Positions 41,962 to 55,554 of a stretch of DNA of 64,000 bases are shown one piece after another; positions within the stretch are counted from its first letter, which is position 1; every line of letters begins with the position of its first letter. The notes beneath the pieces were generated by a model. It was given only the letters and a program-made list of their open reading frames with translations, searched no databases and was not told the DNA's origin. The DNA is from Stigmatella aurantiaca DW4/3-1 (GTDB lineage: Bacteria; Myxococcota; Myxococcia; Myxococcales; Myxococcaceae), in contig NC_014623.1 in the NCBI RefSeq assembly GCF_000165485.1, forward strand, positions 9,504,893-9,568,892, read 5' to 3'. The translations under genes were made by a program, and so were the position numbers.

Positions 41962-44181
41962 TCAGGGCATCTTCCCGTAGGCGCGTTCCAGGAGTTCGTC
42001 ATTGCGGAGGGGGCTGGCCTTGGCCTCCTCCACGTCCAGCCCCTCGCCGTGGCCTCGCCCCTTGCCCTCGAACACAATCTCCGCGCCGTCGAAGGAGGCT
42101 GTGTGGGGGCAGGACGGGAGCTTCAGCGCTGAACGAAGCACCTCGCACGGTCTCGTCTCGGCCGTGTCGAACGTCTCTCCTGCCTCCTGGGTGGCCCGGA
42201 CGAAGAGCACCCGCCCCCTGTCGAAGCGCAAGGAAGCCAGCCTGGGACCGAGCAGCGCCTCCACCCGCACGCGGGCCCGGCGCTCACGCCAGGGGTCTTC
42301 TCCTCCCTGGGAGAAGGCCAGCCATTCTTTCCAGCGCAGCGCGGGCAAGCCCAGCGCCTGCTCCTCCTCGGGTTTGATTCGCACCGTGCCGAGAAAGGCC
42401 TGGCAGTGCGTGGTGTCGCAGAGAGGCCGCCCTCCATGCCGGCTCTGGGCATGCCGCTCGTTGTGCGCCACCACCCGCGCGAGCGCCACCCGCGCCTCGC
42501 CCCGGAGCGCGGCGTCCTCCGCCGCCACCACCCCCGCGGTGTACTGGAGCCGCGTGGTGCGGAAGAGAAAGTCCGAGCCCCTCCGGGCCCTGCGCTCCCG
42601 CTCGGTCGTGGGAACGTCCGGAGGAGGCCGGTACGCAGGCGGCGCGGAGAAGGTGAAGATGCCCGCGTAGTCCCTCCCCTCCGGTGGCAACCCCGGCGCC
42701 CGCACGCGCCAGGGGCTCCCCAGGCACACCGCGGGCCCTCGCGCCACCCGCTCCCCAAGCCGCGAGAACCCCGGGGGCACCGCGTGGGGAATCCCCTCCT
42801 CCACCGAGAACCCCGCGCCTGGGCATCCCACCTCCACCTCGGACGGCTGCACCAGCCCCAACACCTGCACCTGGGCCCGCTCCAGCCCACCCTTCCGGCG
42901 CACCCGCGCCAGGAGCTTCGGCACCTCGTCCGCGAAGCTTCGCGGCATCCTTCCAGGCCGCATCACCACCGCGATCGCGTCCGCGTCCACCGCGACAATC
43001 CATCCATATTGGGGCCGGCTGGCCGCGTCCCTCACGGTGCCTGTCTTGGTGGCCACCCCCGCATAGGCCGCCGAAGCCGGCAGCTCCGACAAGGTCCCTC
43101 GCGCCGCATTGTCCTTCATCGCCTCGATGAGTTCCGGGCGCGCCTCGGCCAGCAACCGGTAGGCTTGCGCCAACCCCCACGGGGACAGCGCCAGCGTCGA
43201 GCGCAAGCCCGTGGCATCCGCCATGTCCGTGGGCGTGCCCGTCAGCCCCACCGCCTTCAGCACCTCCCCCCAGGGGCCGAAGTCCGCCGGAACGCCTCCC
43301 CTCGCGTACCAGTCCAGAAAGTAGCCGTTGCAGGAGCGCAGCAGCGCCGTGCGCCCATCCACCTTCTTGGGCAAGTCACTGCCGCAGGCCCATTCCTGTA
43401 CGTTTGGACGCGCCGGCAGCAGCGGGGGCGGCCCCGCGCTCCCGGCCAGGATGAAGGGCTTGAGCGTGGAGCCGTAAGGAACAGCGCGCCGGGCATTTCC
43501 CTCCGCGAGCAGCACTTCTCCGGAATGCCGGCTCACGACCACCGCGGCCTCCTCCACCGCCTTCACCTCCACGCCCGCAAGCTCATCGATGGACAGCGGC
43601 GTGGCCCAGCGCGCCCCGTCCTGGCACTGGCGCAACCGGGCGGAGAGCGCCCTGGGAAAGCCCTGGCTCTCTCCGAGGATGCGCGCCAGGGCCCTTCGCG
43701 CCGTGGCAGTATCCACCTGGGGCCAACGCGCCAGCTCCGCGGCCGCGCGGGTCAGCGACTGGTAGGGCCCTTCACGCCACTCGGCCAGCTCGCCGCTCGT
43801 CCACACCGCGAAGGCCTCGTGGAAGAGCCGGTCCTCGGAGGCCGCCGGGCAGGCCCACCACAGGAGCTGGTGTGCCAGTTCGTGCCGCAGCGCCACCCGC
43901 AGGCGCGCCTCCAGCACCCCCGGCGTGCCCTGCCGCAACTCCACGAGGCCGGGCCTCCCTTGCGCATTGCGCTCCGGCGGCAGGGCGGCCCCCCGCTGGA
44001 GGCGAATGGGCGGCGGGTCCCGCGGAGGACGGCCGCCTGCCTCGGCCACATACCGTGTCTCCAACGCGTCCCAGGACGCAGCCGCCTCGGCGCGCAGTGC
44101 GTCCTCGGGCGTCACGTCTCCCTGGGTGAGGAACCGCGGGGTGGCCGCCAGCAAGGCAACCGTCACAGCGGCCCACCCCAT
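41962..44181 (-). CDS. DUF2300/YfaQ-like protein: HELAH, penicillin-binding-protein motifs and SpoIID-like C-terminus
   Basis: 739 aa, secreted (signal WAAVTVALLAATP). Three parts are visible. N-terminal (about 30-190): a gluzincin-like HELAH at 100-104 with downstream Glu in FHEAFAVW. Middle (about 200-430): the serine transpeptidase triad S238-T-L-K241, S283-C-N285 and K379-T-G381 in the right order and spacing. C-terminal (about 540-739): a SpoIID-like region (VVAAEDAALRGEARVALARVVAHN in parts, CDTTHCQAFLG, GRGHGEGLDVEEA), the fold of amidase activators and lytic transglycosylases. DUF2300 is my reading from operon context and motif order; longer than E. coli YfaQ. It starts four bases after the A2M stop, so it is part of the yfa-type operon. 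Whether it cuts or cross-links peptidoglycan is unknown. Confidence 0.8.
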   Translation of the reverse strand: MGWAAVTVALLAATPRFLTQGDVTPEDALRAEAAASWDALETRYVAEAGGRPPRDPPPIRLQRGAALPPERNAQGRPGLVELRQGTPGVLEARLRVALRHELAHQLLWWACPAASEDRLFHEAFAVWTSGELAEWREGPYQSLTRAAAELARWPQVDTATARRALARILGESQGFPRALSARLRQCQDGARWATPLSIDELAGVEVKAVEEAAVVVSRHSGEVLLAEGNARRAVPYGSTLKPFILAGSAGPPPLLPARPNVQEWACGSDLPKKVDGRTALLRSCNGYFLDWYARGGVPADFGPWGEVLKAVGLTGTPTDMADATGLRSTLALSPWGLAQAYRLLAEARPELIEAMKDNAARGTLSELPASAAYAGVATKTGTVRDAASRPQYGWIVAVDADAIAVVMRPGRMPRSFADEVPKLLARVRRKGGLERAQVQVLGLVQPSEVEVGCPGAGFSVEEGIPHAVPPGFSRLGERVARGPAVCLGSPWRVRAPGLPPEGRDYAGIFTFSAPPAYRPPPDVPTTERERRARRGSDFLFRTTRLQYTAGVVAAEDAALRGEARVALARVVAHNERHAQSRHGGRPLCDTTHCQAFLGTVRIKPEEEQALGLPALRWKEWLAFSQGGEDPWRERRARVRVEALLGPRLASLRFDRGRVLFVRATQEAGETFDTAETRPCEVLRSALKLPSCPHTASFDGAEIVFEGKGRGHGEGLDVEEAKASPLRNDELLERAYGKMP

Positions 44182-44185
44182 CGCG

Positions 44186-47100
44186 CTACCAGTCGCCTCG
44201 CGGCTTCTCCGAGGGCTTCACCGCCAGCACATCCGCCTTCGTGCGTCCGCGAATGCTCGTGACGTACATGTCCTCGATGGTGGCGGGCGGCGCGGTGAAG
44301 GAGCCCGCGAACTGGGCCCTCATCACGTAACCCACCGAGCGCGGGTTGTCGCTCCACCACGCCGGCTCCTCGAAGAAGAACGTCGCCCGCTCCGGGGTCA
44401 GCACCCGCCGCTTGAGCGCCTCGGGGGCCAGGTTCAGCGCGTGGGGCGCGCCCCGGAATTCCTTGTCCTCGATGAGCGGGACGAAGCCGGCCGGCACCGC
44501 GTCCTCCACCACGTAGTACGCCGAGCGGGACTTGTTGTCCCCGCGCGCATCGATGAGCAGCTCGACGAAGACTTCCTCGCCCTGCGCCACCTGCTCCCCC
44601 GCGGCCAGGGGCACCTTGCCGTCGGCGCGAAGCACCCAGTACCGGCGCTCGATGCTCATCCCCGCCTGCACAGGCTGCACGTCCGGCAGCGGCGTCTGCG
44701 CCGTGGCCCGCAGCGTGGCCACCCCCTCGAAGGCCCCCACGTTGACCGAGCGCGTGCCCGGCTCCAGCGTGGCCACCAGCCCCATGCCCCTGGGCACGAA
44801 GCTCACCACCTTCTGCGTCCCCTTCACCTCCGGAGGCGCCAGCTTCTTGAAGCTCTTCGCATCCCGCTCGATGAGCCACAGGGAGTGCAGCAGCGCCGTG
44901 CTCCGGTCAAAGGTGGACAGGTCCGGCTGGCTGAGCTGCTCCAGCAACCGCCGGCGCGCCTTGTCCACGTCCAGCGCGCCGAAGGAGGCCGCGTGGGCCA
45001 CCACCGCCGTGAGGCCCACCCGCCGCAAGGGGTAGCGGAAGAACGCCTCATGCTCGGCCCCGGCCGCCGGGTTCATGCTCGCCAGCTGCACGTACCCCTC
45101 GTTGCTCGCCGTCACCAAGGTGTCGATGCGGGCCTTCAGCGCAGGCTCCTTCATCACCTCCGCCTTCTCCGCCGCCAGCACCGCGAGCGCCAACGGGTAC
45201 AGGTCTCCCGCCGTCGCCCGCTCCACCAGGGCCCGCACCCGCGCCGCCTGGCGGGGCCCGTACATCCGCGCCAGCACGTAGGCCCGCGTCGCGTCGTACT
45301 CGAAGGGCAGATCCTCCTGCGCTTCCAGCCAGCGCGCCGCCTCCGTCAGCCGCGCGTCATTGCCATCCACCAGCCCCGCCTCCACCGCGTAGGCCAGCCC
45401 ATCCAAGGCAATGAGCGTCATGGGCAAGCTCGGCTCGCTGTAGCCCGCGAACCAGGTGAACCCACCGCCCTTCACCGCCAGCGCGAGGATGCGCGCGGTA
45501 CCCTGCACGGAGCGGCTGCGCGCCTCGGCCAGCAGCGCCTGGCTGTCCGTGTCCAGCCTCGTCAGCATGTCCACCTTCTTGAGCGTCTGGAACAGCGCCA
45601 CGTTGGGCACCGTGGTGGAGACGAGCTGCTCCAGGCAGCCATACGGGTAGGTGAGCAGCTCGCGCACGTTGCTGAGCGCCGCGTCCACCACCGAGGGCTG
45701 GAGCACCAACTCCACGTTGGCCAGCGTGGCCGAGCCCGCCGCGGGCAGCGCCAGCTCACCACCCGACCAGGCGGACACCTTCACCGGCTCCTCCAGCACC
45801 GCGGGCCGCACTGCCAGGGCGCGCCGGTCTCGCAGCGGCTCCTTGCCCCCCGTCACGTCCACCGCCAGCTCGGCCGAGCCCGCGCTGTTGGCCTTGAGCG
45901 GCAGGGCAATCACCTGCTCGCCGCCCTGGGGCAGCTCCACCTGCTGCTCCTGCGTCTTGGCCTGGAGCACGCCCGCGGACGCCAGCCGCACGTTCAGCGA
46001 CTGGCTGCCCTTGGCGTCTTGTCCCGAGGACAGGCGCACCGAGGCGAGCGCCTCGTCCCCCGCGCGGAGGAACTGCGGCAGCGCCGCGTACAGGTTGAGG
46101 CCGCCCCGCGTGGCGAACTCCGCGGTGCCCTCGCCGAAGCGGCCCGAGGTGTCCGCCGCCACCGCCGTCACCACCCACAGCGTCTGGTTCGAGGGCAGCC
46201 GGAAGCGCACCGTGGCGCGCCCCTCCCGGTCCGTCACCACGTTCGGCTGCCAGAACGCCGTGTCGCGATCCTGGTCCTTCGGCTTGCGGCTCGGCGGCTT
46301 GATGGAGGCGAACGCGTGGTCCGGCAACCCCGCCATCTTCCGCGCCAGCGCCTCGCCATAGCCGTAGCCCTGAAACTCGGCGGAATAGAAGTTGGAGACG
46401 TTGTTGCGCGCCGGTGGGTAGAAGAAGTCCAGCACCTTCGGGCGGAACTCGCTCTGGATGGCGTACACCGCCTTGTCCACCACGCCCACCGAGAGCTGCG
46501 TGGCCAATCCGTTGCCCTCATGGTCGGTGACCCGCACGTCGATGACCTGCTCCGTCAGCGGGGCGGCCTCGGCGCGCCGGGGCTCCAGCTTCACCGTGAG
46601 CGTCCGCTCGGCCGGGACGATGCGGTAGGCCACCGTGCGCTCCTCCCAGCGGCCCGTGGCCGTGGGGTACGCCACCGAGACGTACACCGCGCTGCCATAG
46701 CGCTTCTCCACCGAAAAGGCGTGCTGCAGCGTGAGCCCCTTCTGGGTCAGCAGCTGCGTGCCGTACAGGCCCGCCCCCGTGAAGGTGAGCCACACCGGCC
46801 CCTCGTTGCGTCCGCCTGGGCCCCACCCGTCTGGAAAGAGGCCCACGAGCTGCGCCGAGTCTCCCGGCGACAGGGCCCCCGAGAGCGAGGCCAGCGTCAG
46901 GTTGGCCACCCGGGTCACCGGCTCGTCGCTGCCGCCAATGACGAGCAGGGACTCCTCGCCCGACCAGGACTTGCCGCGCTTGTCCTGCACCGTCACCCGC
47001 GCCAGCACCGTCCCCACCTCCGCCGTGGGGACCTTCTGCCGGTGGACACCATCCGCCCCCGTGGTGAAGGGGTGCTTGCCCAGGCTCTTCTCCGAGCCGT

Positions 47101-48898
47101 CCGCCTTGCGCAACACGAACTCCACCTCGCCGGACGTGGCCCCATAGGGCTTGCCCGACAGCGTGGTGGCCCGGATCGACAGCACCGCCTCGGCCCCCTT
47201 CTTCTCCAGCTTGGAGGAGAAGCTCGCCACGCCCAGCACCTCCACCTCCGAGAGGAAGAAGGGCACCGTGGCGTTGGCGAACGTCGCCTGGTCATCCCGC
47301 GCCCGCACCGTGAGCGAGTACTTGTAGGGCAGCCGCTCCTCGCCCGCCGCCAGCGGGGGCACCTCGATTTCAATCTGGGCCTCGCCCGCCGCGCTGAACT
47401 CGGCGGCGCTTGCCCACGGGTCTTCGCCCACCTCGCGCGCGGCCACCGAGGAGAACAGGCGCTCGGGCACGCTGAGCTTGCCCTCGGTGCTGGAGGCGGT
47501 GCCATACGTCACCGCGCTGCCCGCCCCGCCCTTGCCCGCGTCATCCACCCACGCGGGCGCGTCCACCAGCGTGCGGTAGAGGAACACCTCGTAGCGCGCC
47601 CCCGCGGGCACGCCACCCGCGTAGCGCCGCGCCTTCACCGTGGCCTTCAGCGCCGCGCCCGGGACGATGTTCTCCTGCTCCGGCGTCACCTCCAGATAGA
47701 AGGTGGGCTTCACGTAGTCCTGCACGCGCGCCTCGCCCTGGTGCGCATGGTCCTCCACCGAGGCCGTCACCCGCAGCACGCCCGTGCCCAGGTCGCCCGG
47801 TACCTGCATCTGCCCGTAGAAGCTGCCGAACTCATCCACCGCCGTGCGCGTGGCCACCTCGCGGCCCTCGGCGGAGACCAGCTTCACCGCCACCTCTTTC
47901 TTCCGGGGGGTGAGCAACCGCGCCAGGAAGGTGTCTGGCTGTCGGACCAGTCCGCGGAACTTCACCGTGTCGCCCGGCTTGTAGATGGGCCGGTCGCTGT
48001 AGATGAAGACATCCGGCGCCACCGCGAGCGCGGAGTAGAAGTCCGTGTCCACCAGCGCCGTGTCCCCGTCCACCGTGGCGGTGGCCAGCAGGCGCGGCTC
48101 GCTCACCGCGAGCGTCACCTCGCCCCGCTCATCCGTCTTGCCCGAGACGCCCTGGCCGGAGGGCAGGTACACCTGCACCTGCGCCCCCGGGCGCGGCTTC
48201 TGGTCCCGGCCCGCCACGCGCACCAGCACCTGCCCATCGGTCTGCTTGAGCTGCACGGTCAGGTCCGAGACGACGAGCACCACCTGGCCCTCCACCCGCC
48301 CCTGGACGAGCTGGAGGAGGTAGGTGCCCGCGGGCAGCGGCGCGAGCATGACCCGGCGCTCCTGGAAACCGCCGCCCGACCACGAGGAGAACCCGGGGAC
48401 GCTGAAGTCCGCGCCCGTGCCCCCCAGGTCCAGGTTGAGCCACTGGCTGCGCGCCACGGTGAAGCCCGCGGGCACGCCCACGAGCTTGTCCGGGCCCTCC
48501 ACCATCTGGTTGAGCGACGGCGCGGTGTCCTCGGCGCCCCGCTGGGGGAGCGCTGGGGAGACGGTGTCCCGGAACTCCGGGCTGAAGGAATAGAGCAAAT
48601 AGGTGCTGGGCAGGCGCACGGCATTGAGGCCGCGGCTGAGCGCTCGCCCGGGGTTCTTCAACACGGGCGGGACCTGGTACGCGCGGCGCAAGTCGCCCTG
48701 CGCGCGGATGAAGGCGTCCAAGGTGTCCGGCTTGAGCACCCGCAGCTCCACCGGCCCCTTGCTGGAGAACGCCACGTCCACCGCCACCGTCTCCTGGGTG
48801 CCATAGGCCCGCGGCACGGTGATGTAGAGCGGCTTGGCCGCCGCCACGCCCGCCACCGCCAACGCCGCCAGCACCGTCCAACGCATGGAGTTCCTCAT
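44186..48898 (-). CDS. Bacterial alpha-2-macroglobulin (YfaS type)
   Basis: 1570 aa periplasmic protease trap. After the signal (MRWTVLAALAVAGVAAA) come macroglobulin beta domains, with DVFIYSDRPIYKPGDTVKFRGLVR (given whole family hallmark in parts), an A2M domain with DRDTAFWQPNVVTDREGRATVRF-like segment, and the thioester domain with the reactive motif CLEQ (Cys1088 in YPYGCLEQ), followed by alpha-toroid repeats. Proteases that cut the bait region would be covalently trapped. There is no lipobox, unlike YfhM-type A2M. ATG overlaps the previous stop (ATGA) so translation is coupled to the YfaA-like gene. Bacterial A2Ms usually sit next to PBP1C; here a PBP-motif protein follows directly. Confidence 0.95.
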   Translation of the reverse strand: MRNSMRWTVLAALAVAGVAAAKPLYITVPRAYGTQETVAVDVAFSSKGPVELRVLKPDTLDAFIRAQGDLRRAYQVPPVLKNPGRALSRGLNAVRLPSTYLLYSFSPEFRDTVSPALPQRGAEDTAPSLNQMVEGPDKLVGVPAGFTVARSQWLNLDLGGTGADFSVPGFSSWSGGGFQERRVMLAPLPAGTYLLQLVQGRVEGQVVLVVSDLTVQLKQTDGQVLVRVAGRDQKPRPGAQVQVYLPSGQGVSGKTDERGEVTLAVSEPRLLATATVDGDTALVDTDFYSALAVAPDVFIYSDRPIYKPGDTVKFRGLVRQPDTFLARLLTPRKKEVAVKLVSAEGREVATRTAVDEFGSFYGQMQVPGDLGTGVLRVTASVEDHAHQGEARVQDYVKPTFYLEVTPEQENIVPGAALKATVKARRYAGGVPAGARYEVFLYRTLVDAPAWVDDAGKGGAGSAVTYGTASSTEGKLSVPERLFSSVAAREVGEDPWASAAEFSAAGEAQIEIEVPPLAAGEERLPYKYSLTVRARDDQATFANATVPFFLSEVEVLGVASFSSKLEKKGAEAVLSIRATTLSGKPYGATSGEVEFVLRKADGSEKSLGKHPFTTGADGVHRQKVPTAEVGTVLARVTVQDKRGKSWSGEESLLVIGGSDEPVTRVANLTLASLSGALSPGDSAQLVGLFPDGWGPGGRNEGPVWLTFTGAGLYGTQLLTQKGLTLQHAFSVEKRYGSAVYVSVAYPTATGRWEERTVAYRIVPAERTLTVKLEPRRAEAAPLTEQVIDVRVTDHEGNGLATQLSVGVVDKAVYAIQSEFRPKVLDFFYPPARNNVSNFYSAEFQGYGYGEALARKMAGLPDHAFASIKPPSRKPKDQDRDTAFWQPNVVTDREGRATVRFRLPSNQTLWVVTAVAADTSGRFGEGTAEFATRGGLNLYAALPQFLRAGDEALASVRLSSGQDAKGSQSLNVRLASAGVLQAKTQEQQVELPQGGEQVIALPLKANSAGSAELAVDVTGGKEPLRDRRALAVRPAVLEEPVKVSAWSGGELALPAAGSATLANVELVLQPSVVDAALSNVRELLTYPYGCLEQLVSTTVPNVALFQTLKKVDMLTRLDTDSQALLAEARSRSVQGTARILALAVKGGGFTWFAGYSEPSLPMTLIALDGLAYAVEAGLVDGNDARLTEAARWLEAQEDLPFEYDATRAYVLARMYGPRQAARVRALVERATAGDLYPLALAVLAAEKAEVMKEPALKARIDTLVTASNEGYVQLASMNPAAGAEHEAFFRYPLRRVGLTAVVAHAASFGALDVDKARRRLLEQLSQPDLSTFDRSTALLHSLWLIERDAKSFKKLAPPEVKGTQKVVSFVPRGMGLVATLEPGTRSVNVGAFEGVATLRATAQTPLPDVQPVQAGMSIERRYWVLRADGKVPLAAGEQVAQGEEVFVELLIDARGDNKSRSAYYVVEDAVPAGFVPLIEDKEFRGAPHALNLAPEALKRRVLTPERATFFFEEPAWWSDNPRSVGYVMRAQFAGSFTAPPATIEDMYVTSIRGRTKADVLAVKPSEKPRGDW

Positions 48899-50499
48899 GA
48901 ACCGAACCCTCCGGGAACCAATGAATCGCCCTTCACCGTGCCACGCAATCCCACGAACGGCAGCGTCTCGAGGTCGCGCCGGGCGGCTTCGATCTCCGGC
49001 GGCGCCGACTTCGGCACCGGCGCCTTGCGCCCCAGCCGCTGCTCCGACCAGTACCCATCCATCGCGAGCTGCCCCAGCAGCGGCCCGGTGTTCACCCCGA
49101 GCGTCATCGAGCCGGGCGCGCGCAGGCCCGCAACCACGGGGCCCGCGGCGTTGAGCAGGTTGGGGCTCTGGCCCTCACAGGCGTTCTGCAGGCGCTGGAG
49201 CACCTCCAACGAGGAGGACAGCACCCGGTGGCTGCACAGCGTGGAGTGGAACAACTTGTTGCCCCCATTGAAGATGCGCTCCAGCGCGGGCGCATCCTCG
49301 GTGCGCCCCCACAACAGGGCGAACTCGTGGTTCAGCGCCGCGTCTCCCCGGGGCGTCCACACCAGCGCCACCTGGCGCGTGAGCACCGCGCCCGCATCCT
49401 CCCCCTTCCAGTACGCCTGCACCTTCGAGGCCTCCAGTGTCTCGGGCAGCTTGAGCTGGAGCGCCAGCAGCACGGGGGTCTCCGCGGGGATGAGCTTCAG
49501 CAGCTCATCGGACAGCGGCGCCGTGTCCAGACGGACCTCGTCCGCGAGCGGTCCGGAGATGCCCCGGGCCACCAGCCGGGAGCCCTCGGCGGCGAAGTGC
49601 AGCCGCGTCTCCTGCTTCAGCCCCAGGGCGTGCGAGAGCAGCGCGAGTTCGCGTCCCAGGTGCTCGTGGTGGAAGCCCACCTCCAGGTCCACGCCCTTGG
49701 ACGCCTCCAGCTCGGGCACCTCCGCGCACAGGCCGCGCAGCACCATCGCGGGCTGGCGCGCCAGGACCAGCCGGTCCCCGGACCGGCCGGCATACAGGGA
49801 CTGCTCGGCCACGAGCCAGCGAGAGATCTGGAAGCCCCCCTCGGGGACCTTGATGGCCGAACTGGCACCAGCCGGGCACGCGCCCGCGGTGAAGCCTCCC
49901 CGGTGGGCCACCTGCTCCATGGCCTCGAAGGCCCCCACGGCGCCCGCGGGGGCGCCGGGGACGATGAAGGCGGGGGCGGTGGAATCCTCGGGGCCCACGA
50001 ACCACTGCACCCGGAAGGGCACGTCCAGGAGCTTGCCCGCCACCAGGTCAAACACTTCCTCCCGGAAGGAGGCCTTCAAATCCGCTCCCGTGGTGCCAAA
50101 GAAGGCGGCCCAGGAGCTGGCGAAGCCCTGGCCGAGCGGCTTCTTCATCTGCTCCTGGAGCCAGGTGTTGGCCAGGAGCACCTGGCGCACCCGGGCGGGC
50201 GCGTACACGTCCACCCAGACGGCGGGCGCGCCCTGCTCCGACACGTCCTCCAAGGGCGTGGGGGCGGGCGGCTCGGGCATGCCCTCCACCGTGGCCCCGG
50301 CGCTGGGGGGGCCCGAGGGCCGCGAGGGCGGCACCGCGAGGGGTGCCCCCCCCTGCGAGTCCGCGCCCCGGCGGCCGAGGATGAAGGCCCCCACCACCAG
50401 GGCGGTCACCACGATGGTGCCCACACCGATGAGGACCCACTTGAGGATGCCCGGCTTCGGCGGCGGCGCGCCGGGAGGCGGGGGAGAGACAGCGGTCAT
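48895..50499 (-). CDS. DUF2138/YfaA-like protein
   Basis: 534 aa. An N-terminal Pro-rich cytoplasmic stretch (MTAVSPPPPGAPPPKPGI), one membrane anchor (WVLIGVGTIVVTALVVGAFIL) and a large periplasmic domain. I know this family only by its association with YfaS/T/P/Q; no enzyme motif is visible. The start at 50499 overlaps the previous stop in ATGA, and the stop overlaps the A2M start in the same way. The annotated frame extends upstream to 50562 but lies inside the previous gene. A role as scaffold or substrate-presentation partner of the macroglobulin is inference. Confidence 0.82.
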   Translation of the reverse strand: MTAVSPPPPGAPPPKPGILKWVLIGVGTIVVTALVVGAFILGRRGADSQGGAPLAVPPSRPSGPPSAGATVEGMPEPPAPTPLEDVSEQGAPAVWVDVYAPARVRQVLLANTWLQEQMKKPLGQGFASSWAAFFGTTGADLKASFREEVFDLVAGKLLDVPFRVQWFVGPEDSTAPAFIVPGAPAGAVGAFEAMEQVAHRGGFTAGACPAGASSAIKVPEGGFQISRWLVAEQSLYAGRSGDRLVLARQPAMVLRGLCAEVPELEASKGVDLEVGFHHEHLGRELALLSHALGLKQETRLHFAAEGSRLVARGISGPLADEVRLDTAPLSDELLKLIPAETPVLLALQLKLPETLEASKVQAYWKGEDAGAVLTRQVALVWTPRGDAALNHEFALLWGRTEDAPALERIFNGGNKLFHSTLCSHRVLSSSLEVLQRLQNACEGQSPNLLNAAGPVVAGLRAPGSMTLGVNTGPLLGQLAMDGYWSEQRLGRKAPVPKSAPPEIEAARRDLETLPFVGLRGTVKGDSLVPGGFGS

Positions 50500-51113
50500 G
50501 GCATCCACTCCTTGAAGCGGAAGAAGCCGAGGAAGGCAGTGTTCTGGGGCACGGGGCGCCACTCGATGGGCGCCTCCGTGGCGAGCGTGTGCAGCACGCC
50601 GGTGCGCACGGCGGCGCCCTTCTCGCCCGGGTGATAGACCACACGGGCGGGCGCGTGCGCCTTGTCCTCCGGGCGCACCACCAGCATGAGGTGGAAGACG
50701 GGACCCGCCTCCTGCTCCTGGCGGAAGGCGACCAGGTCCCCCGTGCGCAGCGCCTCGAAGGCGGCCTCATCGCGGCCCAGGGGCAGAAAGTTGCGCGTCA
50801 GCAGCGTCTCCGCGTCCGCGAACTCCGAGGGCTGGCCGCGGACATCGCTCCACAGCGGCCGGGCGAGCCGCTCGGGATAGAAGCGCCGGTGCGCGGCGCG
50901 GTAGGCAAAGCGCACCAGGCCCGCGCAGTCGCGCTGGTCCGGGTGCCACGCGGGATCCTCCTGCTGGAGTTGCGCGAGCGCCACCTGGGCCAGCTCACGC
51001 CGCAGGAGCACGTCCCGGGCCTCGCGCGGGCCGGACACGGCGGGCGCACCCGGAGCGGTGGGAGCCTGGGGCCCAGCGCCCGCGAGCACGAGGATGAGGG
51101 ACAGGACACGCAT
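50496..51113 (-). CDS. DUF1175/YfaT-like secreted protein, NlpC/P60-type fold
   Basis: 205 aa. A short signal sequence (MRVLSLILVLAGAGPQ) then a single domain with the NlpC/P60 Cys motif QRDCAGLVRFAYR (about 60-72), GDLVAF and the His in VFHLMLVV. These would be the catalytic Cys and His of a peptidase or amidase acting on peptidoglycan peptides, if active; in YfaT proteins activity is not established. Coupled by ATGA overlap to the YfaA-like gene and 21 bases downstream of the YfaP-like gene. Confidence 0.82.
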   Translation of the reverse strand: MRVLSLILVLAGAGPQAPTAPGAPAVSGPREARDVLLRRELAQVALAQLQQEDPAWHPDQRDCAGLVRFAYRAAHRRFYPERLARPLWSDVRGQPSEFADAETLLTRNFLPLGRDEAAFEALRTGDLVAFRQEQEAGPVFHLMLVVRPEDKAHAPARVVYHPGEKGAAVRTGVLHTLATEAPIEWRPVPQNTAFLGFFRFKEWMP

Positions 51114-51134: not shown

Positions 51135-52064
51135 TCAGTCCCCGCCCTCGTACTCCCCGCCCTCGTCCCCGCCGCCCTCGCCCCCGGTGCTGATCGCCTG
51201 GGCGGTCTCCTCCAGGTTCTTGGGCCAGGAGGGGTGCGCGGGCTTCGGGTCCTGCGAGGGCACGTACACCTCCGCCTGGTTGTCCCCGAGGATGTTGATC
51301 CACGCCAGCACGCGGGTGGTGCCCGGGGTGGCCAGGGGGATGCGCACCATGCGGCGCACCTCGCCGGGCGTGCCCTCGAAGAGGGCCAGGTTGAGCGTGG
51401 CCACCGTGTGGGCCTTGTCGCCGCTGGGCCAGTAGTTGGTGGCCACCAGGTAAACGCCCTTGGGCGGCGCCCGGTGGATATAAAGGTAGGGGCCGTAGGC
51501 GGGCTGGTCGAAGTCCCCGCCCTGCTCGTTGAGGAAGAACGTGCCGCCGCTGGGGCTGGCGGTGTCCGCCCAGTACACGTGCGCCATCTTGGTGCCGTCG
51601 AGCCGCGGGCCCGTGTCCGGCGCGGAGGAGACGCTCTCCTTCGTGGGCTCGTAGACGTGAAGGTCCGTGTACACCCCTTCCGTGTCGCTGGTGAGGATGA
51701 CCTTCAAGGGCACGGGGGGAATCTGCGCGTAGGCCGTCACCTGGGCGCGCTCGGTGCCCGCCTTGTTCGTGGCCATCACGGTGACGATGTTCTTGCCGCT
51801 GGCGGCGGGGAACTTGCGGCTGAAGCGCCCACCGTAGGTGCGCATCAGGTAGCGGTCTCCGTTGATGGAGACGACCACCGGATCCACGGTGGTGTCACTG
51901 ATGGACCCCTCCACGAGCATCATCCGGTCCACCGTCCAGCCGCCCGTGGGCGCGGTGAGGGTGACCTTGGCGGGCTGGGTGCCCTTGCCGATGGGAACCC
52001 CTTGCTGGCGCGGATGTGCCGGGGGCGTCTGGGTCAGAAGGAGGGCCAGGAAGGCAGTCAGCAT
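51135..52064 (-). CDS. DUF2135/YfaP-like secreted protein
   Basis: 309 aa, first gene of the operon. A signal-like N-terminus (MLTAFLALLLTQTPPA) precedes an Ig-like bridging domain (about 35-125, KVTLTAPTGGW, YGGRFSRKF) and the DUF2135 beta-sandwich (about 130-265) with LTSDTEGVYTDLHVYEP, AHVYWADTASPSGGTF and VYLVATNYWPSG. It ends in an acidic Gly/Glu/Asp tail (GGEGGGDEGGEYEGGD). The role is unknown; its presence with A2M, DUF1175, DUF2138 and DUF2300 partners identifies the yfa locus. It begins 49 bases beyond the stop of the upstream kinase gene on the same strand. Confidence 0.85.
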   Translation of the reverse strand: MLTAFLALLLTQTPPAHPRQQGVPIGKGTQPAKVTLTAPTGGWTVDRMMLVEGSISDTTVDPVVVSINGDRYLMRTYGGRFSRKFPAASGKNIVTVMATNKAGTERAQVTAYAQIPPVPLKVILTSDTEGVYTDLHVYEPTKESVSSAPDTGPRLDGTKMAHVYWADTASPSGGTFFLNEQGGDFDQPAYGPYLYIHRAPPKGVYLVATNYWPSGDKAHTVATLNLALFEGTPGEVRRMVRIPLATPGTTRVLAWINILGDNQAEVYVPSQDPKPAHPSWPKNLEETAQAISTGGEGGGDEGGEYEGGD

Positions 52065-52112: not shown

Positions 52113-54881
52113 TCACAGCGTGCGGCAGTGGGGGCCTGATTTCAAGCCGCCCTCGCACGCGGAGGTGCTGGGGGGGTCTTCCCGCTCCAGGGGGAGGCTG
52201 AAACAGAACGTCGAACCCTCTCCCGGGACGCTCTCCAGCCAGATGTGGCCGCCATGGGCCTCGATGATTTGCCAGCTCAGGTGCAGGCCCATGCCCACGA
52301 CGCCCACATACCCGGGCGCCCCAGAGGGAAGCGGCTCATAGAGGGGCTCGAAGACGTGGGGCTGGCGATCGGGGGGAATGCCGGGCCCATGGTCGCTCAC
52401 GGACACCAAGGCCCGGTTGCCCTCGCACGAGAGCCGGACCTCGATGGGCCCCGAGGGGGGGGAGTAGCGGATGGCGTTCTCCAGCAGGTGCGCCACCACC
52501 TCCCCCATGCGCTGATGGTCCGCGTCGACGATGGTGGGCTCGCCAGTCTCCAGGTAGATGGGGTTCTCCGTCGTCCGCGAGAGGCTCTTGACCCGCTCCG
52601 TGACGAGGGCCTTCAGGTCGAGCCGGTCCCGCTCCAGCTTCGGAAGCCCGGGCGCCATCCAGACGGCGGTGAACAGGTGCTCCACCAGGCGGGCCAGCCG
52701 CCGGGTGCTGCGGGCAATCGCCGCGAGCCCCTTCTGCTGCCGCATGGAGCCCTCCTCCATGCGCGAGAGGATGTCCGCCCAGGTCTGGATGGTGGTGACG
52801 GGGGTGCGCAGCTCATGGGCCGCCGCCGTCATGAACTCCTCGCGCAGCCGCAGCGCCTCGCGCACCTCCTGGAACAGGCGCGCCTTCTCGATGGCCACGG
52901 CGAACAGTTGGCCCACGGTGGTGTGGAACTCCAGCTCGCGCGAGGAGAACGTGCGCGGGGTGTTGGTGAAGCAGGTCATCACCCCCACCAGGTGGCCCCG
53001 GGAGTGCAAGGGAACCGACACCAGGCTGCGGAAGCCTTCTCCCGTGGCCATCGAATGGCTGAGCGACGGCGGATCCTTCTCCACCAGGATGTCTTCAATC
53101 ACCTGGAGCTTCTCTTCCCGGGCGGCCTGGGCCGTGAGGCTGGGCGCCTCGAAGGACAGCTCCCGGCAGCGCTCGCGGACCGCCTTCGACAATCCGTGGG
53201 AGACCAGCAGGGTGAGCTGCCGTTGCCCGGGCCGGACCAGCCACAGGCCGACCGCATCCGTGCCGAGCGCGTGGAGGCTCTGCTCGCTCGCCACGTGGGC
53301 GATGCGCTCGAGTTCCACCTCCCGGACCAGGGCCTGGCCAATGCGGGCCAGGGCGCGCTCCCGGTCGAGCAGCCGGCTCCGCTCCTCTTCGTCCTTCTTG
53401 CGCCCGGTGATGTCGTGGATGACGGTCTCCCCGAGGATGATCTTCCCCGAGGCATCCTTCACGGGGGCGCCGTTGACGCTGAGCAGGCGCTCCTCGCCCG
53501 AAAGGTCCACCATGCGCATCTCCACATCCGTGAAGGTCTCCCCGCTCAACGCCCGATAGAGGGGCAGTTCCGCGAGCGTCATGGGGTGCCCATCGGAGCG
53601 CCGGAGGTGGTAGCGCCGCAGGTACTCGGTCAGCGGCAGGTCCAGTGAGGAGTCGCCCTCGATGCCGAGCAGCCGCAGCCCCGCGAGGTTGGCATCACAC
53701 AGAACCCCCCCGGGGCTGGCCAGGAAGATGGCATCGGGCACGCTGGCGATGATGGCCCGGAGCTGGCTGGCATGGTGCTCGGCCTCCGCCCGCAGCGCGT
53801 CCACCTCCCGCTGGCGCTGGGCCATCTGCTCGGCCATCTGATTGAACGCCATCCCGAGATCCTCTAGCTCGTCCCCCGTCCGGATGCGGACGCGCTGCTC
53901 CAGCGCCCCCTTGCCCAGGGCATGGGCCAGGATCTGCAACCGCCGCACCGGCCGGGAATGGAGGCGGGACAGCCCCACGGCGATGCAACCACTGAGCAAC
54001 AGGATGCCCCCGAACGCCAACAGCTTCGTGCGCAGCCCCGCGTAGAGGGATGCCAGCGCGCTGTCCCGGGAGGACGCCACGCCCACCACCCAAGGGTGCC
54101 GGGGCGTGGACACGAACGCGCCCAGCGAGAGCTCCTGGGTGAGGGGATGAACGAACCGGTCGAGGCTCACCGGGACCCCCGCGAGCACCTCCTGAAGTGG
54201 CTTCCAAGAGGCGAAGGCGAGGCTCTGCTCGGTCGAGAGGTGGGGGTAGCCAGTGTGAAAGGCCAGCCGTCCCCGGGAGTCCATCAACATGATGTCCTGG
54301 CCGGACTGGAGCCACGCCGTCTGGTAGCGCTGGGCCATCTGCTCCGTCTGCATCACGACGTTGACCACCCCGATGGCCTGGCCGTGCGCGTCGCGGATGG
54401 GCACGGAGACAATCATGCCGGCGCTCAAGGGCCTGCGAAGCAGGAGCACCTCGGAGACGACGGGGGCGTTGGTGGCCATCACCTGCTGGAAATACGGGCG
54501 ATCATCAATCCGAAGCCTGGGCTCGGAGGGAACATCGAGATCCCCCCACCCCCGGTTGAGGCCGCTGGCGTCATAGACGCCGATGGCGTCGTACCGGGGA
54601 AGGTGCCGGGCAAGCCGTTGCAAGTGCCCATCCAACACGGGCGTGTCCAGGGTGCGCACGAGGGGATCATTGGCGAGGGCCCAGCCAAGCTCGACGGCCG
54701 CATCCAGGGAGTCCGCCACCTGCACGGCCACGGCCTGAGCAGTCAGCCCCTGCGCATTCAGCAGGGCTTGCTGGGTACGCCGCAGGTTCAGAACGAAATC
54801 CGCGCACAACAGCACCAACACCGGCAACAAGACGGCGGCGAAGGCAAGCAAGAGCTTTCGGTGGATGGGCAGGCGAGGCAT
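52113..54881 (-). CDS. Membrane sensor histidine kinase, dCACHE-HAMP-PAS-GAF-HisKA-HATPase
   Basis: 922 aa. TM1 (about 8-32), double-CACHE extracytoplasmic domain (about 35-280; DDRPYFQQVMATNAPVVSEV), TM2 (about 283-305), HAMP (about 307-365), PAS (about 375-490), GAF (about 515-660), HisKA with His689 in TAAAHELRTPVTTI, and ATPase with N box LLENAIRYSPP, G1 DHGPGI and a modified G2 VVGMGLHLSW. It likely senses a small metabolite outside the cell. It precedes the yfa operon by 48 bases on the same strand and could be cotranscribed with it. Start: ATG 54881 is placed by the membrane segment; no strong ribosome site is visible. Confidence 0.9.
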   Translation of the reverse strand: MPRLPIHRKLLLAFAAVLLPVLVLLCADFVLNLRRTQQALLNAQGLTAQAVAVQVADSLDAAVELGWALANDPLVRTLDTPVLDGHLQRLARHLPRYDAIGVYDASGLNRGWGDLDVPSEPRLRIDDRPYFQQVMATNAPVVSEVLLLRRPLSAGMIVSVPIRDAHGQAIGVVNVVMQTEQMAQRYQTAWLQSGQDIMLMDSRGRLAFHTGYPHLSTEQSLAFASWKPLQEVLAGVPVSLDRFVHPLTQELSLGAFVSTPRHPWVVGVASSRDSALASLYAGLRTKLLAFGGILLLSGCIAVGLSRLHSRPVRRLQILAHALGKGALEQRVRIRTGDELEDLGMAFNQMAEQMAQRQREVDALRAEAEHHASQLRAIIASVPDAIFLASPGGVLCDANLAGLRLLGIEGDSSLDLPLTEYLRRYHLRRSDGHPMTLAELPLYRALSGETFTDVEMRMVDLSGEERLLSVNGAPVKDASGKIILGETVIHDITGRKKDEEERSRLLDRERALARIGQALVREVELERIAHVASEQSLHALGTDAVGLWLVRPGQRQLTLLVSHGLSKAVRERCRELSFEAPSLTAQAAREEKLQVIEDILVEKDPPSLSHSMATGEGFRSLVSVPLHSRGHLVGVMTCFTNTPRTFSSRELEFHTTVGQLFAVAIEKARLFQEVREALRLREEFMTAAAHELRTPVTTIQTWADILSRMEEGSMRQQKGLAAIARSTRRLARLVEHLFTAVWMAPGLPKLERDRLDLKALVTERVKSLSRTTENPIYLETGEPTIVDADHQRMGEVVAHLLENAIRYSPPSGPIEVRLSCEGNRALVSVSDHGPGIPPDRQPHVFEPLYEPLPSGAPGYVGVVGMGLHLSWQIIEAHGGHIWLESVPGEGSTFCFSLPLEREDPPSTSACEGGLKSGPHCRTL

Positions 54882-55011
54882 GGCCGTGCTGACAGTGTGA
54901 ACATCCTCCTCAAAAGGGCGTGTTCCACGCCTCCGGCCTGGCCCTCCCTGGCAGGGTATGCCGGTAGCCAGGCGTTCGAGGCCCCCTTGTGCCTGCCCGG
55001 GGCCGCCCGTG

Positions 55012-55554
55012 CTACTTCTCCGGACGCAGCGGCTCGAATACCCGGAGCGTCCAGAGCGAGCCTGTGTCGAAGCCCGTGAGCCCCTGGGGGTTGAAGAGGC
55101 TCGCACTCGTCGCGAATCCCCCCACGTAGGCCGCGGGGAACTCCGTCAGCCGCAGGGCGCAGTGGGCGAACACGACCCCCGGGCGCGGCACCGTGTTGCT
55201 CACCATGGTGCACCGCCCAAGCGCGGTGAAGAGCCCTTCGGGCAACTCAAAGCGCACGTAGAACTCCGCCTGGGAGCCCTCGGCGAAGGTGCGGTCCTCG
55301 ATGCGCACGCACGCCAGCGCCGTCCCCACCCGTGCTGGGCCCTCGTGGGCCAGCCGGACCGTGTCCGCGTCCGTCCGCGCCACATACAGGCTCGCCGGCA
55401 GCCGCACGTTCACCGGGAACGGCGCGCTGTCGCAACCCTTCACATCCACGGCCTGAGGATCTTCTCGCGAACGGAATTGATACACCACTTCTCCAGCGAG
55501 CATGGGAGCGGGCAGGGCCAATACCATCGGGACGAGACACTGAACCCAGCGCAT
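55012..55554 (-). CDS. Secreted protein of unknown function
   Basis: 180 aa, family not recognised. Signal peptide MRWVQCLVPMVLALPAPMLAG, mature start near EVVYQF. The mature domain is beta-rich, with four cysteines (GCDSAPF, ACVRIED, GRCTMVS, AHCALRL) that can make two disulfides. AAGGAG lies seven bases before ATG 55554. It is upstream of the dCACHE kinase on the same strand, about 130 bases apart; perhaps a periplasmic partner, by position only. Confidence 0.7.
   Translation of the reverse strand: MRWVQCLVPMVLALPAPMLAGEVVYQFRSREDPQAVDVKGCDSAPFPVNVRLPASLYVARTDADTVRLAHEGPARVGTALACVRIEDRTFAEGSQAEFYVRFELPEGLFTALGRCTMVSNTVPRPGVVFAHCALRLTEFPAAYVGGFATSASLFNPQGLTGFDTGSLWTLRVFEPLRPEK

Follow-up and report, generated by a model that had tools for sequence, protein, structure and literature searches.

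The gene considered here lies within a 64,000-nucleotide stretch of the Stigmatella aurantiaca DW4/3-1 genome (contig NC_014623.1, positions 9,504,893 to 9,568,892), hereafter called the window, where it is the last member of an operon-like run of five genes on the minus strand. In order, this run encodes a DUF2135 protein, a DUF1175 protein, a protein with a hydrophobic N-terminus, an alpha-2-macroglobulin (A2M), and the 739-residue protein P0001 (window positions 41962-44181, with its ATG at 44181), which is the positional equivalent of YfaQ and MagE. Two of the junctions between these genes are ATGA overlaps, and the P0001 gene begins a few bases past the A2M stop. The P0001 chain appears to comprise three modules, namely an HExxH metallopeptidase-like module, a compact transpeptidase module of the penicillin-binding protein (PBP) type, and a module resembling SpoIID lytic transglycosylases. 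These are preceded by a hydrophobic N-terminus (residues 1-18, 44128-44181) that, judged from the sequence alone, is a probable Sec signal peptide, and whose residues 1-11 are modeled by AlphaFold2 (AF2) with a confidence below 50. An original prediction made from the DNA had placed the motifs HELAH, STLK, SCN, KTG, CDTTHCQ, and GRGHGEG in this open reading frame, and each is present at the residues it gave, with CDTTHCQ at residues 588-594 and GRGHGEG at residues 708-714.

Conservation was assessed in an alignment, designated A2, of 33 rows consisting of the window protein and its counterparts from 32 of the 43 loci L043-L085, with identities to the window protein of 27-79%. The rows are drawn from Myxococcota and Bdellovibrionota, and the weak matches L086-L101 (n=16) were excluded; L067 and L080 come from separate contigs of a single strain, so that not every one of the 43 loci counts as independent. 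Every row is identical at H100, E101, H104, E122, S238, K241, S283, C284, N285, K379, and G381, and likewise at E555, H582, C588, H592, C593, and Q594. T occupies position 380 in 31 rows and position 382 in 32, with S in the other 2 and 1, respectively, and GHGxG occurs in 32 rows, the remaining one (L079) ending before the motif. Ser238 and Lys379, on whose conservation among orthologues the original prediction had staked its case, are thus invariant. Values of dN/dS (NG86) relative to three close relatives are approximately 0.10, 0.18, and 0.19. The notion that the motifs occur by chance was rejected because of their invariance over the 33 rows and the PBP fold described below. Among Bdellovibrionota, 14 of 114 drawn genomes yielded a match, with a full-length copy only in G199 and weak matches to the C-terminal part alone in the 13 others. 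One genome (G029) carries a partial second copy of the SpoIID end, in two pieces (C1:4686974-4687680), about 5 kb from the intact gene. A record listed as Comamonas sp. KCTC 72670 (L047) contains a myxobacterial-type operon with 67% identity and is possibly mislabelled.

The transpeptidase module spans residues 207-432 (42886-43563) and contains SxxK (S238TLK241, 43459-43470), SxN (S283CN285, 43327-43335), and KTG (K379TG381, 43039-43047) motifs, which appear in this order in all rows, with spacings of 45 and 96 residues. This arrangement had been taken as a mark of penicillin-binding transpeptidases, an expectation borne out by the AF2 model of P0001 (pLDDT 87.9, pTM 0.76), for which VIA returned Helicobacter pylori PBP2 with a Z score of 20.9 (3.0-3.3 Å over 220 residues), other PBP rows being tied with it. 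The first Foldseek match was Escherichia coli PBP1b (1.5e-7), and class D beta-lactamases were also among the matches.

The link from P0001 to PBPs by sequence ran through acidobacterial homologues. The window region scores 11.9 bits against PF00905, below the gathering score of 22.1; nine of 15 module regions match this family at E<=1 (best 2e-4), as do six of 33 whole proteins (best 0.021). A sequence search of PDB chains gave a best E value of 0.081 for the transpeptidase region and no match for the whole of P0001, and the window-family transpeptidase profile alone recovered from its own genome the gene itself and one match at E 7.3. A window-family scan reached the acidobacterial protein L097, which corresponds to Pfam Transpeptidase at E 1.1e-22, and the acidobacterial homologues L095, L097, and L101 pass the PF00905 gathering score. 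When compared with three acidobacterial transpeptidases, the transpeptidase-region profile gave E values of 1e-10, 1.3e-16, and 7.7e-21, with scores of 57.7, 90.0, and 113.3 versus 7.7 or less for 15 shuffles of each; mismatched module pairs remained at background, and L095 gave 3.4e-8 in a separate run. A joint hidden Markov model (HMM) of the window family and the acidobacterial sequences was then applied to a set of 19 proteins, of which E. coli MrcB scored 25.1 bits and FtsI 20.6, a BiPBP_C-bearing PBP from the S. aurantiaca genome itself 17.8, PbpC 11.0, MrcA 10.5, MrdA 8.1, and DacA 0.4, with unrelated controls below 0. The DacA score speaks against a DacA-type carboxypeptidase, but the class D beta-lactamases among the structural matches make this rejection tentative with respect to reaction type. 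Both sequence and model indicate, with near certainty in our estimation, that residues 207-432 adopt a PBP-type transpeptidase fold with an intact SxxK/SxN/KTG triad.

The remainder of the chain, residues 435-737 (41971-42879), resembles SpoIID. On alignment to the structures 5i1t and 4rwr, E555 (42517-42519) matches the catalytic glutamate, and H582, C588, H592, and C593 (42403-42438) match the four zinc ligands H, C, H, and C; the corresponding residues of Clostridioides difficile SpoIID are E101 and H134, C140, H145, and C146, as given in the available text of PMC6221140. The C-terminal SpoIID motif GHGEG is found at 42040-42054. Against PF08486, the window protein scores 15.2 bits relative to a gathering score of 23, its relative at L083 passes with 25.9, and 30 of 33 members match at E<=1. 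Clostridial loci were reached directly by the scan, and L086, the one tested, corresponds to Pfam SpoIID at 2e-30. The region profile matched three SpoIID crystal chains at 4.7e-5 to 6.2e-5 and the SpoIID modules of three acidobacterial proteins at 1.8e-14 to 6e-17, with 15 shuffles of each scoring far lower, and a Foldseek search with the model identified SpoIID 4rwr at 2.2e-5. Sequence and model therefore make it very probable that this segment is a SpoIID module retaining the catalytic glutamate and the four zinc-ligand positions, and the earlier proposal that transpeptidase and SpoIID modules share one chain finds support in the model, in Foldseek, and in the profiles. P0001 is like the sporulation SpoIID in its catalytic glutamate, four zinc positions, and GHGxG, and differs from it by fusion to transpeptidase and HExxH modules and by its place in an A2M operon. 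Two Myxococcaceae relatives (L082:7296-8783 and L084:9827-10864) have the SpoIID module only, with no A2M operon in the stretch covered.

The HExxH module, as delimited by models and profiles, occupies residues 20-188 (43618-44124). The H, E, and H of its HELAH motif (residues 100-104, 43870-43884) are invariant, as is E122 (43816-43818), a candidate third zinc ligand. A model of this domain (pLDDT 89.9) most closely resembled collagenase H in VIA (Z 9.4, 3.5 Å, 159 residues), and the rows that followed were mostly zinc aminopeptidases of the M1 type; M1 aminopeptidases and collagenase H are both gluzincins. The best Foldseek match to the domain had an E value of 0.41, which is not significant, and the best match to the region among PDB chains by sequence was 0.61. 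Residues 20-188 are thus probably a metallopeptidase-like module resembling gluzincins, an assignment based on sequence and model that is weaker than those of the other two modules. There is moderate support for the view that HELAH represents the core of this third module and not an incidental motif.

The order of the modules differs among lineages. In Acidobacteria, they reside in one chain (L095, L173, L174, L175, and L176) or in two adjacent genes (L097 and L101), and HExxH is last; in the Myxococcota rows and in two Bdellovibrionota relatives, HExxH is first. The profile of the N-terminal HExxH module of the window matched the C-terminal acidobacterial one at E 8.1e-5, 8.6e-6, and 0.0025, with scores of 25.4, 30.8, and 17.2 versus at most 7.3 for shuffles, and L095 gave 1.5e-4 in a separate run. 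Because these two modules are kin, the module appears to have switched ends. We extend this kinship no further than Acidobacteria, because the same profile compared with E. coli YfaQ revealed none (0.65 and 0.75 in two runs).

Bacterial A2Ms are relatives of a human immune protein. The A2M of the window (1570 residues, 44186-48898), which is in the MagD/YfaS position, carries a CLEQ thioester motif of the CxEQ type (45626-45637). The original prediction that an A2M is coupled to this protein is well supported, since 39 of the 43 loci L043-L085 place an A2M next to the gene. All five genes occur in order in 32 of these loci, and seven others show the run truncated where the locus stops. Of the four loci lacking an A2M, two (L080 and L083) have the gene at the locus edge and two (L082 and L084) have only the SpoIID module. 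The association extends to Acidobacteria, where at least 116 of 119 drawn genomes match in a search with L095 as the query, mostly through single modules. Two loci that were outside HMM building, L173 and L174, have the arrangement DUF1175-A2M-[transpeptidase-SpoIID-HExxH]. Using an HMM threshold of E<=1e-3 to detect A2Ms, we found that A2M and DUF1175 adjoin three of four acidobacterial three-module loci and that an A2M is present in none of 12 loci without the transpeptidase (Fisher p 0.007), these 16 regions having come from 15 genomes and been picked among top matches, not at random. An A2M located further away could be missed in three of the 12 because of the short stretches available (L177, 10.9 kb; L180, 5.2 kb; L188, 15 kb). 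The three-of-four count excludes L095, L097, and L101, which served in HMM construction; an A2M adjoins the genes at L097 and L101, and L095 is near a contig end. At L175 the modules are fused, no KTG motif was found, and an A2M is about 27 kb away. At L099 and L100, transpeptidase and SpoIID genes are adjacent, with no A2M or HExxH match in the stretch covered; this is possibly an older pair.

The other genes of the run identify it as a Mag-type operon, with DUF1175/MagC, A2M, the YfaQ position, and DUF2135 all present. The first gene encodes the YfaP-like DUF2135 protein (51135-52064), and the second (50496-51113) encodes an NlpC/P60-like DUF1175 protein homologous to MagC (E 1.2e-7 against the MagC structure 7bk8). 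The Cys of DCA and the His of HxM in this protein are invariant in 10 aligned sequences, though the family has been called inactive in print. The protein in the MagB/YfaA position (48895-50499) has a hydrophobic N-terminal stretch recognizable by eye in its sequence, and its comparison with YfaA was no better than with shuffles. None of the five operon proteins matched PADLOC at E<=0.01. A histidine-kinase-like open reading frame (52113-55106) directly precedes the operon in the same orientation; a close homologue of this kinase (E<=1e-20) is near only one other operon, L066. Like the mag operon (magABCDEF), the window operon has DUF1175/MagC, the protein with a hydrophobic N-terminus, the A2M, and a gene in the YfaQ position, arranged as they are in E. 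coli, together with DUF2135; the DUF2135 gene is first in the window operon and last in E. coli. The window A2M has the CLEQ thioester motif, whereas MagD does not. P0001 is likened to Pseudomonas aeruginosa MagE by operon position and by the name YfaQ, PA4488 (magE) being listed as 'Uncharacterized protein YfaQ' in an entry of PMC10977779.

The available text on E. coli YfaQ (PMC12282094, mSystems 2025) describes transpeptidase-like and SpoIID-like halves and a predicted Sec signal, and reports that cells lacking yfaQ are wider and that the deletion is linked by phenotype to peptidoglycan genes and membrane genes. The earlier statement that no description of the combination was known must be amended with respect to these two halves, although neither 'macroglobulin' nor yfaS occurs in the main text of that article. 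P0001 and E. coli YfaQ (b2226) are each encoded after an A2M gene and proceed from a transpeptidase-like to a SpoIID-like region. HMMs built without these sequences detect the transpeptidase in YfaQ from E. coli (7.5e-4) and Citrobacter (7.5e-5) and likewise SpoIID (2.2e-5 and 1.3e-7), and the HExxH HMM detects nothing. Profile comparison with E. coli YfaQ gave 1.4e-4; the SpoIID-region profile was weak (0.036) and, in another hhalign run, null (0.88). BLASTP of P0001 against YfaQ reached a best E value of 0.044, and YfaQ searched against PDB chains gave none. The two enterobacterial proteins have GSLWK or GSVWK, SCG, and KTW, the latter two in place of the SCN and KTG of P0001, and are without CDTTHC and GHGxG. 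Their HExxH motif (HEYLH) is C-terminal, in contrast to the N-terminal location in P0001, and is in a context with no detectable homology to the window module. The designation 'YfaQ-like' in the original prediction is accordingly apt for operon position and weak homology but not for the Pfam family, as DUF2300 (PF10062) has no match to P0001 at E<=1 and none in the whole genome at E<=0.1.

The A2Ms of mag-type operons are described as 'type II', without a thioester, in the accessible portion of PMC5764988. CxEQ is present in 17 of 17 A2Ms, comprising that of the window, those of 14 Myxococcota and Bdellovibrionota loci, and two from Acidobacteria (part of those available, with L173-L176 outside), and is absent from the Citrobacter A2M in a yfa-type operon. 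Because the mag-type operon of the window has a CLEQ A2M and CxEQ is found in 17 of 17, the division between type I and type II does not follow operon type in this sample. The original prediction also held that classical A2Ms are paired with PBP1C, which is true of E. coli, the sole genome checked, where pbpC and yfhM are adjacent. That pair is like the one in the window in joining a thioester A2M to a protein with a PBP transpeptidase fold, and differs in that P0001 has no BiPBP_C or glycosyltransferase match and carries SpoIID and HExxH modules instead. The S. aurantiaca genome contains two A2Ms, and the end of the second is about 2.2 kb from a match to BiPBP_C, which we take to mark PBP1C. 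In the four acidobacterial genomes that encode the chain (G275, G225, G254, and G307), an A2M was found but no BiPBP_C match.

As one account of these features, for which we judge the chances to be about even, we propose that P0001 is exported and serves the thioester A2M of its operon as a partner that remodels or repairs peptidoglycan. P0001 would probably be periplasmic, where its transpeptidase module would bind or re-join stem peptides, its SpoIID module would trim or release damaged glycan, and its HExxH module would process the A2M or clear protein trapped by it. The operon, including its MagC-like peptidoglycan binder, would then guard the wall and mend it at the points of entry of foreign hydrolases and proteases, and P0001 would do what PBP1C, according to a published proposal, does alongside classical type I A2Ms. 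In favor of this view, the available text of PMC12663445 has MagD shielding P. aeruginosa from VgrG3 and, to a limited extent, from Tae1, through a mechanism on which its authors do not commit themselves, and deletion of yfaQ in E. coli has the effects described above. Several observations weigh against this proposal. The two enterobacterial YfaQ proteins have lost two of three transpeptidase motifs as well as the SpoIID zinc and GHG motifs, and the gene has been kept; DUF1175 has been described as inactive; and C. difficile SpoIID requires SpoIIP to act first, according to the available text of PMC6221140. In E. coli K-12, the annotation gives yfaS, the adjoining A2M gene, as a pseudogene, and because yfaQ deletion nonetheless has a phenotype, YfaQ may act without an A2M. 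The parts of Zouhir 2018 (PMC5764988) at hand report MagE to be cytoplasmic and not stably bound to MagD. In P. aeruginosa, MagD gives no protection against TseH and is dispensable against Burkholderia thailandensis, as also stated in the available text of PMC12663445.

The loss of motifs in enterobacteria suggests an alternative in which P0001 is a binder and not an enzyme, with its modules docking the A2M complex on peptidoglycan, through D-Ala-D-Ala stems and glycan ends, at openings in the wall, and with catalysis being a relic. E. coli and Citrobacter YfaQ keep the S and K despite SCG, KTW, and the missing CDTTHC and GHGxG, and the DUF1175 protein of the same operon is described, in the sources available, as inactive and peptidoglycan-binding, the title of a 2021 FEBS Lett article having MagC as NlpC/P60-like and interacting with peptidoglycan. 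However, the catalytic and zinc positions do not vary across the 33 rows (GHG in 32, with one row truncated), which exceeds what binding would need, and we consider this explanation unlikely, if still the foremost of the alternatives. The HExxH module might instead be the working part of an A2M maturation factor, clipping or processing the A2M while the wall modules anchor it. Its key residues are invariant and its fold matches are of the gluzincin type (best Z 9.4), and deletion of magE in P. aeruginosa gives rise to extra, larger forms of MagD; on the other hand, the accessible text of Zouhir 2018 (PMC5764988) interprets these as retaining an uncleaved signal peptide and proposes MagE as a signal-peptide-cleavage or chaperone factor. 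Given also the nonsignificant Foldseek result for the module (0.41) and the enterobacterial YfaQ proteins, which show only HEYLH with no detectable homology to it, such a role seems improbable.

A still more distant prospect is that P0001 senses envelope stress, its compact transpeptidase module reporting beta-lactams or peptidoglycan fragments in the manner of BlaR1. Sensor domains of the BlaR1 type are class D-like, and class D beta-lactamases are among the Foldseek matches; the transpeptidase motifs are close-set, and the histidine kinase gene is just upstream. Against this, the kinase homologue recurs near L066 only, the transpeptidase HMM ranks PBPs above DacA (in a test set without a class D enzyme), and no signalling domain is seen in the P0001 chain, such that we regard a sensory function as very improbable.

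Several features of the system appear to be new. To judge by sequence, the active sites are intact where the enterobacterial triad has decayed, and a predicted third module, HExxH, has been added to the description along with its move from one end to the other. Also apparently new are a mag-type operon whose A2M has a thioester motif and a genome with two A2Ms, both of them near a protein with a transpeptidase fold. Among the best-ranked matches in the open-licence literature, none joins a transpeptidase-SpoIID protein to an A2M.

The shared transpeptidase-fold partner links the two known bacterial A2M arrangements. We tentatively suggest, while considering it doubtful, that many bacterial A2M systems, with or without a thioester, are two-part units of wall defence that combine a protease trap with its own wall re-joining enzyme. 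PBP1C would fill the second part in one branch, and a single-chain enzyme that cuts, re-joins, and clears would do so in the other, Myxococcota and some Acidobacteriota having it in intact form and Enterobacteriaceae in decayed form. If true, such two-part units would explain the protection that the mag operon affords against peptidoglycan-cutting toxins of type VI secretion systems. A protein of the MagE/YfaQ type with intact active sites in the harmless and genetically tractable myxobacteria permits direct tests, and the three predicted modules beside the A2M suggest a capacity of this defence system for cell wall repair or remodelling.

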